Source: Opitutales bacterium
Lineage (GTDB): Bacteria; Verrucomicrobiota; Verrucomicrobiia; Opitutales; Oceanipulchritudinaceae
NCBI GenBank assembly: GCA_020831585.1
Contig: JAFIGE010000015.1
Span: forward strand, 1-52,928
DNA length: 52,928 nucleotides
Direction: 5' to 3'
In this document: positions 3,166-52,928 of the stretch, piece by piece
Numbering within the stretch: position 1 is the first letter of the stretch
Layout of the letters: each line of letters opens with the position of its first letter
Translations under genes and position numbers: made by a program
Notes under the pieces: model-generated
Database searches by the model: none
The model's input: only the letters and a program-made list of their open reading frames with translations
Told to the model about the DNA's origin: nothing

Positions 3166-6100
3166 ATGCTGCATCCCAGGAATTTCTCGCGAGGGCTCCG
3201 CGCCATCGGGCTGGCGCTTGCCCTGTTTTTGGGGGCACCCGTTTTGGTCGCGCAGACCTACACGGCCTCGGTGCAGTCGATCGCCCTCACGGGCGGTGAC
3301 AACATCATCGATGCCGATGCGAACATCAGCGACCCCACCTACAACCGCGACATCTTCTCGACGCGCGTCATCACCGATTATACGCGCTCCAACACTTCGG
3401 GACCGAGCTTTGTTGGCTTCCGTTATCGCTTTCGCCTGCTGACCCCCGGTGGAACGACCGTGCCGTTGAAGGATTCCCTGGGAAATGTTTCGACCACGTT
3501 TTTCGTGAACTTCTCGGTGAACTTCGGCACCGGCCTGACCGCGCAGACAAATAATCTTCTCGCCCTCCGCCCGGGAGCGGCGCTCTCGCCCGATCTGGAA
3601 TACCGCCTTGAGGTCACCGTGCAGCGGGATCTCGGCACGGGCTCTTTTGTGAACCTCAACACCGCCATTTCCCTCCCCCGGCGCTACTGGCACTTTACCG
3701 GCCTGCAGGCTGTGGGCCCGCAGCGCAACGTCCTTACCCGCATTGTCAGCGTGTCGTTTGCGAAGGATTACGCCATTACCGCCGGGGCCAGCGAGACCGA
3801 CCGCGCCTTCCTGGCCAATGTCGAAATCGAGGTGCGCCGTTACGACGGCTGGACGCAGGCCGCGCCCAACACCAACAACATCGAATTCCGCGCCACCGCC
3901 CGCCTCGCCAACAGCAACTCGCCAACCGCGATCCCGCTGCACGCGGAGACAGACGGGGTATTGGAGACGACCTTTCCCATCGCCCAATTTGTCCCCAATC
4001 TATCCGTGTCCACCTTCTACGAGCCGGCGGTCTCCTTCCACACCCTGCAAATCCCCCTCCGATCCGATGCCCAACTGGCGACAGTGGCGGAGGAGTTCCG
4101 GATTTTCGCCGATCTCGAACACATCCCCGTGGCCAATACGACGGCTTACACGTTTAACACACAGAACTTCGAGAGCCCGACCGTTCCCCTCTTCCATTTC
4201 AACGGCGATCTCATTGCCGCCGTGCCCGCAACGGTCTTTGTCATGGAGCGCTTCGCCTCGCCCACGATTGGCGGCAGCGCCGTTTCCGGAGGTGCTCTGG
4301 GCGGGGGCGGGACCTACCGCAGCCTCACCGTGAACGTATCCAAAGGCTTCCTCAAAGCCAACCCCGGCTACAGCACGGCAGCGATCATGAAACCCGTGAC
4401 GCTCCAGGTCCGCCTCCTCAATGGTGGAAACGCGCTCTTCATGAGCGGGGGGATTCCCGTGGTCATCCCTCCGGGCGAGGAGATCGGCACGGCCGACGCA
4501 GGCCTCCAATACACCCGCGCCAACTTCCGTTTCGCGCCCAATGGTATTCGCGGCGATATTGAGCTGCTCCTTCCAAAAGGCCTCGGTGTACGCCCCTTCG
4601 ACGGCACCTCCAACCGCATCTTTTACGACCGCCTCGCCACCGAAGACCGGCTCATCGTGCCCGGCGATCTGCGCCCCAACGGCCCCGTCGTCTTCGAACC
4701 GAACGGCGAGCCCTACTTTCTGATCGCCGAGGAAACCAAACCCTTTGAAATTGCCGCCGAGACGATTACGTGGACGGTTCTGACGGGCGAAATCACCCCC
4801 GACCCCGCACCCGCCGGGGTGCCCCGTGTGCGGTTTGTGCGTGAGCGTGAGCACAACTTTCTCAATGCCACCCCGCTCCCGGGGGCCGACAAGATCATCC
4901 GCTCCAACGATGCCCATTTCTTTCAGATCGACCATTCCGCCTCCAATCTCGCCATTACCGCCGATGCCGATGGGAAGGCCGTGCTCGATGGCACCTTTGG
5001 CCTCAAAGCGGGCGAGGCCCATGCCCATTTCCCCTACGGCGTCCGCTTTTCCTGGAACAAGCCGGGCAGCGTTACCTATACCGGGAACCGGATCGATCCC
5101 GCCCTCTCCACCCTCGACGGCACCACCCTCGTGCGCCTCGCCTACCGGCGCACCTGCGATCCGGCGGGGGATACGGATTGCGGTGACATCGCGCCCCTCA
5201 TCGTCGATTTGAGCGCCGGCGGCGCACCCCTGCGTTTCACACCCGACGGCGGCCTCTCCGTTGCCGGACAGATCACGCAAAACGGGTTCCTTCACCTCGG
5301 CTACATCGACGCCCTCACAACCAACCCCTCCTTTCCGTTTTTCGCCCACCGCACGACGGCATTTTCGAGCGCTTCTTTCCTTATGGCCGGGCATGTCCTC
5401 CATGCGGCTGATCGCCCCCCCCCAGCCTTCCCGCCACCGACGGCCCCGGCTATCTCCTCAACTCCGGATTCGCGCCCACCAACCTCACTGTCGCCGAGCG
5501 CCCCGGCACGGTCGCGTATGCGTTGGGTTCGGCCGATTACCCCGGCTTCAACTACCGCGTGGCCGCCGAATCGTCCGGGATCGTTGCCCGCTCTGTCCTG
5601 GGCGGCGAAACCTCGCCCGTCTACGCCCTCGGCCCGCGTTCGAAATACTACACCCGCTTTGGAGGCGTTTCGGGTACCCACGAACCCACGACACTGCCCT
5701 TCCCCGATCCTGTCCTCATCTGCGGCTACCTTTTCGAATTCGAGAACTTCGCCCTCTCCTTCCTCGGCTCGCGTGTGCACGATTCCCGCACTTCGGGCTC
5801 GCTCTACATCCCCGATCCGGCCGTGCCTGCGAACGGATTCACGGTCGAATTCGATCCGCTCTTTTTCTCCTGCCTCGGCGGCCTCACCACCGCCGATCTG
5901 GCCAATGGTCCCTTCGACCACACCCCCTCCTACTGGAACGCCGACCTCAGCGCCCTCGCCGCCTCCTTCACGCCGAAAGTGGGCGCTGAATGCGATCCGG
6001 GCGAGGCCTTCTTCACCCTGGGCGTGCGCGCCTATGCCTCCAACATCGCCACGGCCTTCCACGGCAACCTCCTCTTTTACCCCGACGGCGACCTCGTGCC

Positions 6101-50604: not shown

Positions 50605-50772
50605 CCATTTCCAGGGACCGCTGCCAAAGTTGTCGCGTCGCCTTGCCGCGCGATCCGGGAGCGTGAGCCTGCCCGCGATGGGCCTACGTACCGCAATCGG
50701 CGGCTGAAAGCACGCCGCTCCTGTGGGCTCCCGCCAATGGCGCTCGGTTAAGATCTCCCTCGAAATCGGCAT

Positions 50773-51100
50773 CGACGGACGAAGGGGTGGTATCCGAGCA
50801 CCCTTAGGGGCTCACGCTTCCAGCGTGAAAGCATCCCGGCTAAAGCCGCGCGTCCGGCGGAAAGCGGCGGACATGCCGGGGCCGTTTGGGATGCAGCGGG
50901 CAGGCCGGGACGTTGGCATCTCGGGAGCCCTGACAAACTGCGCCATTACCCCCGCGAAGTCTTCCGTGCTCAGGACTTCCCGGCAATTCACTTTGCCCCC
51001 GGCACCTTTGGCTCGTGTCACGGGCGAAGGCACCGCACCGCTCGGCGGCTGAAAGCACGCCGCTCCCCTCCGCATTCGGCGGCTAAAGCGCACCGCTCCC
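50773..51100. repeat. Dispersed repeat block, copy A (about 330 bp)
   Basis: Starts at cgacggacgaaggggtgg and shares most of its sequence with copy B (52314-52695), which has about 55 extra bp. Both contain the hairpin CACGCT-TCC-AGCGTG, the words ggcggctgaaagcacgccgc and ggcggctaaagcgc, and, on the minus strand, a fragment coding CREVLSTEDFAGVMA (about 50936-51003) that belongs to the HRDC-like gene described below. Confidence 0.85.
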
Positions 51101-51106
51101 AAGCCC

Positions 51107-51223
51107 CCCGCCCGGGCGGGCGAGCCGGAATCCGTTGTTGTTCGACCGGTTGGAGACGGTGGCGTTGTTCGCGTTGTTGTTCCACGAGCCTCCGCGGATG
51201 CGGCGGTTGGGGCCATCGTCTCA
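51107..51223 (-). other. DGR template-repeat-like segment
   Basis: On the minus strand, directly after a TGA (51221-51223), one frame reads DDGPNRRIRGGSW, then NNNANNATVSNRSNNN and GFRLARPGGG. This is the C-terminal RGGSW...GFR motif of SUMF/C-type-lectin-like proteins, but here it is an orphan without the rest of the domain. All nine Asn codons are AAC, the hallmark of template repeats in diversity-generating retroelements, whose adenines are mutated during copying. The perfect 14-bp palindrome CCCGCCCGGGCGGG (51107-51120) follows, reminiscent of the GC-rich hairpin near the end of DGR repeats. It could instead be the tail of a decayed sulfatase-modifying-type gene. Confidence 0.5.
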
Positions 51224-51311
51224 CCTATGGCGGTGGCCCGAAAGTGCGGTGCCAGCACATGCCGACGAAAGTTGTAGGAGCAAGCGGTTTGAGCGAAGGC
51301 GCACACGGCGA

Positions 51312-51415
51312 GGGCGTGCGGCTGGGCACGCCCTGAAAGGGCACATGTCCAAAGCCCGGGGTTTCAACCCCGTGGACATCCAGACACCCCACGGATTTCG
51401 CGCCCTGAAAGGACG
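51312..51415. repeat. Palindrome array, left side of the IS200-type gene
   Basis: Contains the hairpins GGGCGTGC/GCACGCCC (51312-51333), CGGGGTTTCAACCCCG and GCGCCCTGAAAGGACGC. The same set occurs in inverted orientation at 51896-51980, so the two arrays flank the transposase gene as terminal-like elements. Confidence 0.75.
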
Positions 51416-51426
51416 CCGGAGTGGCG

Positions 51427-51879
51427 CTAATCCCAGACATAACGTTCATCGAAATCGACGCCGTATTGCCTGAGGAATTTCCGGAACTCATCTTGAAACG
51501 ATTCCCTTTGGTGATGGGCTTTCTGGGAATGCACGTAGTCGCAGGCTGCCTCCAACCCACGCGGCCCTACGCTAAACCACCCGTAGCCTGCCTGCCAGGC
51601 AAACCCACCCGCCACGAACGCGCTTTCGTTCACCCATTTGGAACTCCCGCCTTTGAGGTCTTTCATCATCTGGATGTCGGTTACCGACTTGGAGTCGCGA
51701 ATGATCAGATGCACATGGTCGGGCATCCCGCCAATGGCCAAGAGCCGCGCTCCGTGATCGCGCAGAATTCCACCGAGATAAGCGAACAGGCGCGGCTCAA
51801 AATCCGCCGAAATGAGGGGCGCACGATTTTTCGTGCTGAACACTAGATGCGAGTATTTGACGTGGAGGGATTGGCCCAT
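51427..51879 (-). CDS. tnpA: IS200/IS605-family Y1 transposase
   Basis: 150 aa, the usual size. The HUH motif is HVHLII in GGMPDHVHLIIRD, and the catalytic tyrosine lies in ACDYVHSQKAHH. The N-terminus (LHVKYSHLVFSTKNR) and the C-terminus (VDFDERYVWD) match the family. The enzyme cuts and joins single-stranded DNA at short hairpins. It appears intact. The inverted palindrome arrays on both sides are likely its substrates or the repeats it spread (REP-like). Confidence 0.93.
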   Translation of the reverse strand: MGQSLHVKYSHLVFSTKNRAPLISADFEPRLFAYLGGILRDHGARLLAIGGMPDHVHLIIRDSKSVTDIQMMKDLKGGSSKWVNESAFVAGGFAWQAGYGWFSVGPRGLEAACDYVHSQKAHHQRESFQDEFRKFLRQYGVDFDERYVWD

Positions 51880-51895
51880 TGCGCAAGGTTCACCC

Positions 51896-51980
51896 GCGTC
51901 CCTTCAGGACGCAAAATTTTTTGCCTCCACATACCGGGGTTGAAACCCCGGCCTTTGCACAGACGTGCTTTCAGCACGAA
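51896..51980. repeat. Palindrome array, right side of the IS200-type gene
   Basis: Contains GCGTCCCTTCAGGACGC (51896-51912), CCGGGGTTGAAACCCCGG (51934-51951) and CGTGCTTTCAGCACG (51964-51978). Read on the other strand these come in the same order as the left array, so the arrays are inverted copies. Confidence 0.75.
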
Positions 51981-51995
51981 GAACCTGAAAACGGC

Positions 51996-52150
51996 CCGGC
52001 AGGCCCCCCTTCATCGGCGAACTTTTCCACCTTCGCTTCACCGATCCCCGCCAGTTGCCCCAGCGCATTGCGGGTTTGCCGGCGCGCCTCCGGGTACTTC
52101 GGAAATTCTGTGAAAAAAACGCCCGTGGGTGTGAACGACGCAGATGTCAT
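51996..52150 (-). pseudogene. C-terminal fragment of an HRDC-like protein
   Basis: The minus-strand frame reads PEARRQTRNALGQLAGIGEA followed by KVEKFADE, a helix-hairpin-helix motif typical of HRDC domains. The part before it (TSASFTPTGVFFTEFPKYPE) is not family-like. It probably belongs with the N-terminal fragment at 52659-52790 and the middle fragment at 52533-52600, all on the same strand in the correct order. Confidence 0.45.
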
Positions 52151-52313: not shown

Positions 52314-52695
52314 CGACGGACGAAGGGGTGGCTTATCCGGGCACCCTGAGGGGCTCACGCTTCCAGCGTGAAAGCATCCCGGGCCTTGCCGCGCGTCCGG
52401 CGGAAAGCGGCGCGGAGCGCACGCACTCCAAAAGACGGCGGACATGCCGGGGCCGTTTTGGAGTGCGGCGCTGTGCGCCGCTTTGGATGCGGCGGGCAGG
52501 CCGGGACGTTGGCATCTCGGGAGCCCTCACAACCTTCGCCATTACACCCGCGAAGTCTTCCGTGCTGAGAACTTCGCGGTAGTCCACTTTGCTCCCAGCC
52601 CCTTTGCCCCGTGCGGAGGGCGAAGGCACCGCACGGCTCGGCGGCTGAAAGCACGCCGCTACCCTCCGCATTCGGCGGCTAAAGCGCGCCGCTCC
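52314..52695. repeat. Dispersed repeat block, copy B (about 380 bp)
   Basis: Second copy of the block at 50773-51100, with about 55 extra bp (around 52410-52490, words such as gagtgcggcgctgtgcgccg). On the minus strand it contains KVDYREVLSTEDFAGVMA (about 52533-52600), the middle of the HRDC-like gene. A smaller related piece (ctctccctcgaaaaccgttatcgacgg) precedes it near 52200. The last 130 bp of the window hold nothing I can name beyond the start of the HRDC-like gene. Confidence 0.85.
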
Positions 52696-52790
52696 ACCTG
52701 CAGCACTTTGTGCCCCGAAAGGAAGCCGTTCAGCTCCGCCTCCAGGGCCGCATCCCCCTCCGCTGAAATTCGGAAAAATTTCAAGCCCAC
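52659..52790 (-). pseudogene. N-terminal fragment of an HRDC-like DGR accessory protein
   Basis: GTG 52790 opens GLKFFRISAEGDAALEAELN then GFLSGHKVLQVERR. This matches, as I recall, the N-terminus of HRDC-domain proteins found beside diversity-generating retroelement reverse transcriptases. Directly after VERR the sequence enters the palindromic repeat (ggcggctaaagcgcgccgc) and meets a TAG at 52659-52661, so the gene is cut by the repeat. The middle and C-terminal pieces survive further along in other frames. Confidence 0.45.
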
Positions 52791-52928
52791 GCGGAGACCC
52801 TCGGATCCAAAAATCGTACGCCGCAAGAGGGGAAGTTTCCCCTCTTGACTCCCCTCTTCAAAGCCTCTGCGGCCTGCCCTTCATCCATGCTGGAGTTCCG
52901 CCAGCGGGTCCGCTCTCCGCTCCGCTCC

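Follow-up and report, generated by a model that had tools for sequence, protein, structure and literature searches.

The window analysed here, a 52,928-nt stretch of DNA, carries near its right-hand end and on the minus strand the remains of an HRDC-like gene in three pieces, each in a different reading frame (52784–52686, 52620–52549 and 52132–52013). Read along the minus strand, the N-terminal HRDC piece is followed by a REP A doublet, the middle HRDC piece, the left part of a MITE-like element, the palindrome REP C and the C-terminal HRDC piece, and then by a Y1-transposase element, the tail of a reverse transcriptase (RT), a template repeat and a second block of REP A, HRDC, MITE-like and REP C sequence. 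An HMM of 17 intact HRDC proteins matches the N-terminal piece (LKFFRIS...LQVERR, 52686–52784, a DGR accessory gene by homology) at model positions 3–38 in frame 0 (i-E 5.1e-9), the middle piece (..KGAGSKVDYREVLSTEDFA, 52549–52620) at positions 57–81 in frame 2 (i-E 6.9e-6) and the C-terminal piece (TRNALGQLAGIGEAKVEKFADE, 52013–52132) at positions 116–140 in frame 1 (i-E 8.7e-6), where the i-E values refer to a tiny search of six translated frames only. The N-terminal assignment is shared by tblastn with L092 and other homologs; for the C-terminal piece, the HMM match covers 52087–52013 and tblastn matches from 52132. Model positions 39–56, 82–115 and 141–163 have no match in the window. The protein set comprised L092–L106, L090 and the HRDC protein of contig C94 from the same genome; L089 (C-terminus truncated), L091 (C-terminal match only), L107 (truncated, with the same protein as L089) and L108 (stops in the frame read) were left out. 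The Pfam HRDC model reaches only 11.8 bits on the C-terminal piece (E 0.25; cut-off 23.8), and the gene name therefore rests on the homologs.

The initial annotation had described an HRDC-like gene split by a multi-copy palindrome, and this description holds: its two protein segments, GLKFFRIS..VERR and KVDYREVL.., are the first two HMM pieces and lie in different frames. The minus-strand orientation of the gene and the third piece, outside 52533–52790, were not part of it. The first open reading frame reads through unit 1 of the doublet and ends at the TAG of the GTAG that opens unit 2 (52661–52659). It is very unlikely that an HRDC protein is now made from this gene. A perfect 10-bp stem with a 4-base loop lies just upstream of the HRDC piece (52824–52847); the window holds two such structures, the other starting at 955. 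We rejected it as a candidate for the hairpin found behind DGR target genes, since the other HRDC genes checked have no stem, or a different one, in front of them.

Comparison with the intact homologs shows that the gene is broken, but not by a clean insertion. At the REP A doublet, the gene has lost 18 model positions; the block FV..G..SFW..CV.YLEG, conserved in the intact homologs, is absent from it. From V-E-R-R to KVDY the window gene measures 95 nt (52685–52591), and in each of the 17 intact genes this distance is 90–108 nt. Since ~74 nt of this unchanged spacing are REP sequence, the gene lacks about as much of its own. The second gap grew from the 135 nt that all 17 intact genes have to 494 nt (52548–52055). 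The homolog comparison that had been proposed as the check on the interruption thus came out in its favour as far as the repeat is concerned: all 17 proteins lack the inserted segment and have conserved residues in its place, and none of the 21 HRDC-bearing loci checked contains the REP A word.

Beyond the Y1-transposase element, the 3′ tail of a DGR reverse transcriptase is preserved (51210–51327, minus strand, firm from ~51300), and the rest of the gene is absent. The tail aligns with the contig end of C168, and the longer copy there matches C94 RT residues 260–337 (E 2.6e-4). The tail is followed by a DGR template-like repeat (51116–51196, minus strand, core RGGSWNNNANNATVSNRSNNNGFRLAR), comparable with the template repeats of contigs C70 and C94. 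The RVT_1 model has five matches in the genome, on C61, C46, C94 (two) and C70, and none on the window contig, so that the locus is a remnant and not a working DGR. A DGR-type RT directly follows the HRDC gene in 16 of 20 related loci (the exceptions are L089, L091, L102 and L107) and also on C94. Seventeen of the 20 loci came from the genome scan and three from a search for relatives, in which 4 of 133 genomes had an HRDC match, our own genome included; L089 and L107, whose proteins are identical, probably represent a single locus, which leaves 19 distinct loci at most. When viral contigs were scanned with the HRDC protein of C94, there were 12 pattern matches, none of them a relative.

Two further DGRs of the same genome look intact. 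On C94 the order is target gene, HRDC gene, reverse transcriptase and template repeat, and 15 of 17 differences between template and variable repeat fall at template adenines (75 nt aligned). The C70 DGR (L004, C70:65060–68695) has a different small open reading frame before its reverse transcriptase, and all of its 21 differences are at template adenines (140 nt aligned). In the most likely reading, the window locus is what is left of a DGR in which an HRDC gene, a reverse transcriptase and a template repeat followed one another. The DGRs of Treponema denticola likewise have an HRDC accessory gene adjoining the RT, together with a template repeat (PMC4891356); in that system the accessory gene stands between the template and the RT, whereas the window has the order HRDC, RT, template, with the RT body and the HRDC gene destroyed.

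Several sequences elsewhere in the genome resemble parts of this system. A gene end on C46 (RGGSWRSSAFNATVSNHSLNRPDRRWPDLGFRLVRTP; L066, ~4650–4870) resembles a variable repeat of the window template type. As the best variable-repeat candidate, C46 shows 13 A and 16 non-A differences from the window template over 84 aligned positions; with differences not confined to adenines it is not a clean match, and no other partner was found. Further copies of the window template-repeat type lie near contig ends on C168 (L063, 6485–6604) and C155 (L064, 149–210). Another damaged DGR (L087, G000:C248:22000–26521, at 4151–4483) has ~30 HRDC residues fused in frame to an internal part of its RT; this fusion stands just after a variable-repeat-like gene end, and the contig ends there.

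The repeat in the first gap, REP A, consists of GGAG or GTAG followed by CGGCG.GCTTT.AGCCGCCG, and thus shows the tetranucleotide 5′ of a G+C-rich palindrome that characterises GTAG REPs. In the gene it forms a doublet of two units in direct orientation, GGAG-CGGCGCGCTTTAGCCGCCG (52695–52673) and GTAG-CGGCGTGCTTTCAGCCGCCG (52662–52639); alignment within the genome, the pattern census and coordinates place the doublet at 52622–52695 on the minus strand (right edge approximate). The observation in the initial annotation that the hairpin words recur nearby was borne out, with a second doublet at 51099–51043 and a single GGAG-tagged unit at 50721–50698 (minus strand). Across the genome we count 15 matches within two mismatches, compared to 2 for a reversed-pattern control; 14 of the 15 carry GGAG and one GTAG. 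In each of the two doublets of the window the first unit has one base fewer, a short loop and a GGAG tag, and escapes the census pattern. A doublet with like spacing is tandemly repeated on C40. Among 105 other genomes, none of which is of the same genus, five contain a match within one mismatch, and of six places fetched from them only G013:C451 has the GGAG tag. Folded as a single DNA strand, the doublet shows no advantage over shuffled sequences (z −0.69); the hairpin of the second unit appears in the predicted fold.

More than 100 copies per genome are described as usual for REPs (PMC2817692), and the 15 matches of REP A, in a fragmented assembly, stay far below that number. The 5.28-Mb assembly has 262 contigs, of which the window is one complete contig, C126; the REP A units of C40, C49 and C242 are found no farther than ~400 nt from a contig end, as might be expected if the locus were an assembly chimera joined at repeats near a contig end. 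We regard such a chimera as very improbable, because the two copies of the duplicated block differ (185 of 208 positions identical), unlike a collapsed repeat, and the gene pieces are in order.

The left end of REP A in the gene can be compared between two copies, copy a within the gene and copy b after the template repeat. The two copies, which lie in different flanks, begin with GGAGCGGCGC or GGAGCGGTGC, and since these unrelated flanks diverge at GGAG, the left end of the REP is fixed. In copy a, the start bases also encode E-R-R of the gene. The initial annotation expected that the repeat boundary could be set to the base; this expectation fails, because the first ten bases of the doublet also spell the V-E-R-R codons (52697–52686). 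Four to nine bases at the left junction could thus belong to either the gene or the repeat.

Among the 17 homologs, [VI][ED]RR occupies the junction position in four, and GGAG stands exactly at the junction codon in one, L092 (codons GTG GAG CGG CGG). L092 has GGAGCGGCGG there, which matches the first ten REP bases at 9 of 10 and is not bettered at any of the 438 positions of L092. In a rank test over 15 proteins of the set (C94 and L090 excluded), L094 and L102 have no position above the 8 scored at the junction, and 12 of the 15 have better-matching positions elsewhere. With GGAG in one of 17 homologs and better positions in 12 of 15, a GGAG already present in the window gene before the repeat arrived is something that we infer rather than observe.

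The unchanged spacing, seen against all 17 homologs, and the 9 of 10 bases that the left junction shares with L092 also suit a patch replacement without transposition, in which single-stranded REP DNA, or template switching at a stalled fork, would anneal via GGAGCGGCG and swap an equal length of sequence. We consider this unlikely: equal length in a single event may be coincidence, the second gap of the same gene grew from 135 to 494 nt, and the right-hand overlap is undefinable owing to the variable linker. The broader proposition, that REPs get into genes by a length-neutral exchange of patches with their own tetranucleotide as the anchor, we hold to be quite improbable. If it were true, the GGAG of the gene and the bases next to it would anneal to the REP end, a stretch of doublet length would be exchanged, and REPs would spread by strand replacement, not by added insertion.

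The second copy of the block (50723–51099, minus strand) aligns with the REP A doublet, the HRDC middle piece, the MITE-like left part and REP C. The 185 of 208 identical positions lie in its first block, and its far end rests on an 85% match at 50725–50765. The HMM finds one weak HRDC match in it (i-E 0.006). Two occurrences of the block with the same GGAG start in unrelated flanks could indicate that the middle HRDC piece is not native to the gene and that REP A, HRDC piece, MITE and REP C travel as a mobile cassette with a captured fragment. This is improbable in view of the position of copy a between the N- and C-terminal pieces, in the right order and on the right strand, of the conserved DY that is retained in copy a and lost in copy b, and of the finding of the HRDC part in only two genome copies.

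The MITE-like element is represented in the gene by its left part (CGGGTGTAAT... end; 52383–52551, minus strand, right edge approximate), the 3′ part having been lost or replaced, as judged by alignment with copies on C3, C221, C72, C180 and C121. The copies on C3, C221 and C121 have both terminal inverted repeats and measure 174–257 nt, and are thus short elements with terminal inverted repeats, as is characteristic of MITEs. A recognised right end is absent from both window copies and from the C72 copy, and the C180 copy has no match to the end pattern. No target-site duplication is consistently visible by eye in the sequences next to the three full copies. REP C (GGGGCTCACGCTTCCAGCGTG; 52349–52372, plus strand) occurs at 41 places in the genome within two mismatches (control 0).

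The Y1-transposase element (51333–51974, minus strand) is bounded by inverted repeats at 51935–51974 and 51333–51372 and contains an open, IS200-like frame of 150 aa with DHVH (51427–51879, minus strand). This frame scores 78.1 bits with Pfam Y1_Tnp (cut-off 23), 52.9 bits with NCBIfam IS200, which is below the cut-off of 55, and 22.2 bits with the model of REP-associated transposases (RAYTs; cut-off 80). The RAYT motif NP[VL][RK]xG (PMC2817692) is absent from it (L141). The central palindrome of the element has two matches in the genome within one mismatch, its own two ends (control 1). We therefore rejected this neighbouring gene as the mover of REP A, given a palindrome confined to its own ends, a low RAYT score and the absence of the motif. 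The element resembles the TIRtrons (PMC3733652) in that a Y1 frame is flanked by long palindromic inverted repeats unlike the REPs of the genome, and differs from the TIRtrons of that account in being IS200-sized (150 aa) and in that the RAYT motif was not seen. The genome as a whole (5.3 Mb; G000, L140–L159) has at least 134 Y1-transposase (PF01797) matches, with 150 of 198 candidates scored, many of them in open reading frames near 340 aa; NPVRAG, the RAYT motif, is encoded at 10 of the 20 Y1 loci fetched. Eighteen of the 134 matches begin in the first 400 nt of a contig, and this very large family may help to explain the fragmented assembly. At none of the 20 Y1 loci read, out of the 134 matches, does a REP A word come within 250 nt of the frame picked, and neither these loci nor the neighbouring element yielded a cognate transposase for REP A.

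Several different mobile repeats are thus piled up at the locus. The suggestion that it gives a direct view of how one palindrome family enters genes does not stand, since it mixes at least four repeats: REP A, the MITE-like element, REP C and the Y1 element.

Opitutus terrae belongs to the Opitutales. In this verrucomicrobium, REPs and REP dimers interrupt genes and encode amino acids, and GTAG REPs habitually end the upstream open reading frame with their TAG (PMC3733652). The window shares with the cases described there the tagged palindromes, single or as dimers, in verrucomicrobial genes, and the termination of the upstream frame by the TAG of the REP. It differs from them in a tag that is mostly GGAG (14 of 15), in low copy number, and in a gene that is dead, not extended, with a patch missing. 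Given the printed O. terrae precedent for REP dimers inside genes, the HRDC gene might be taken for a working gene decorated with amino-acid-encoding REPs; this reading, to which we give next to no credence, is already contradicted by the frame changes at both gaps, the stop at GTAG, the lost blocks and the lack of an RT match on the contig. A REP doublet also recalls REPINs, for which tandem clusters are known as well (PMC3116915), but both REP A units are direct and not in the inverted orientation by which REPINs are recognised.

Taken together, we favour, with a probability of about 70%, a history in which an HRDC-type DGR died and was broken up by REPs, MITE-like and Y1 elements, REP A having arrived at a GGAG. 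The gaps are occupied by REPs, the truncated MITE-like element and the Y1-transposase element, and two HRDC blocks, the end of the gene and most of the RT are missing. The REP A doublet would have arrived beside the existing GGAG of the gene (GTG-GAG in V-E), a position that fits the prediction for single-strand (HUH/Y1) transposition with a 5′ tetranucleotide; transposases of the IS200/IS605 group follow a rule of flanking target tetranucleotides (PMC6006769). About 70–80 nt of adjoining gene sequence would have disappeared along with this arrival or afterwards. A segment starting from the same GGAG would later have been copied to a place just after the template repeat; either transposition or recombination of one REP unit with another could have done this. 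An intermediate strain would be needed to separate transposition with loss from patch replacement, both of which the sequences would accommodate.

REPs inside Opitutus genes, HRDC-type DGRs and tyrosine transposases flanked by terminal inverted repeats are already in print. Length-neutral replacement by REPs was not found in the portions consulted of the open-licence literature on REP insertion (including PMC8266576, PMC2817692 and PMC3116915), and the only part of the locus that might be new is such a replacement at the GGAG overlap. The locus is mostly the ordinary decay of a known system by known repeats, with one unusual junction. Its value lies in a dead DGR beside two intact-looking DGRs of the same genome, which shows how such loci erode, and in a left junction where the end of a REP can be compared with intact genes at the same place; a sister strain would directly test the use of a pre-existing tetranucleotide by REPs.
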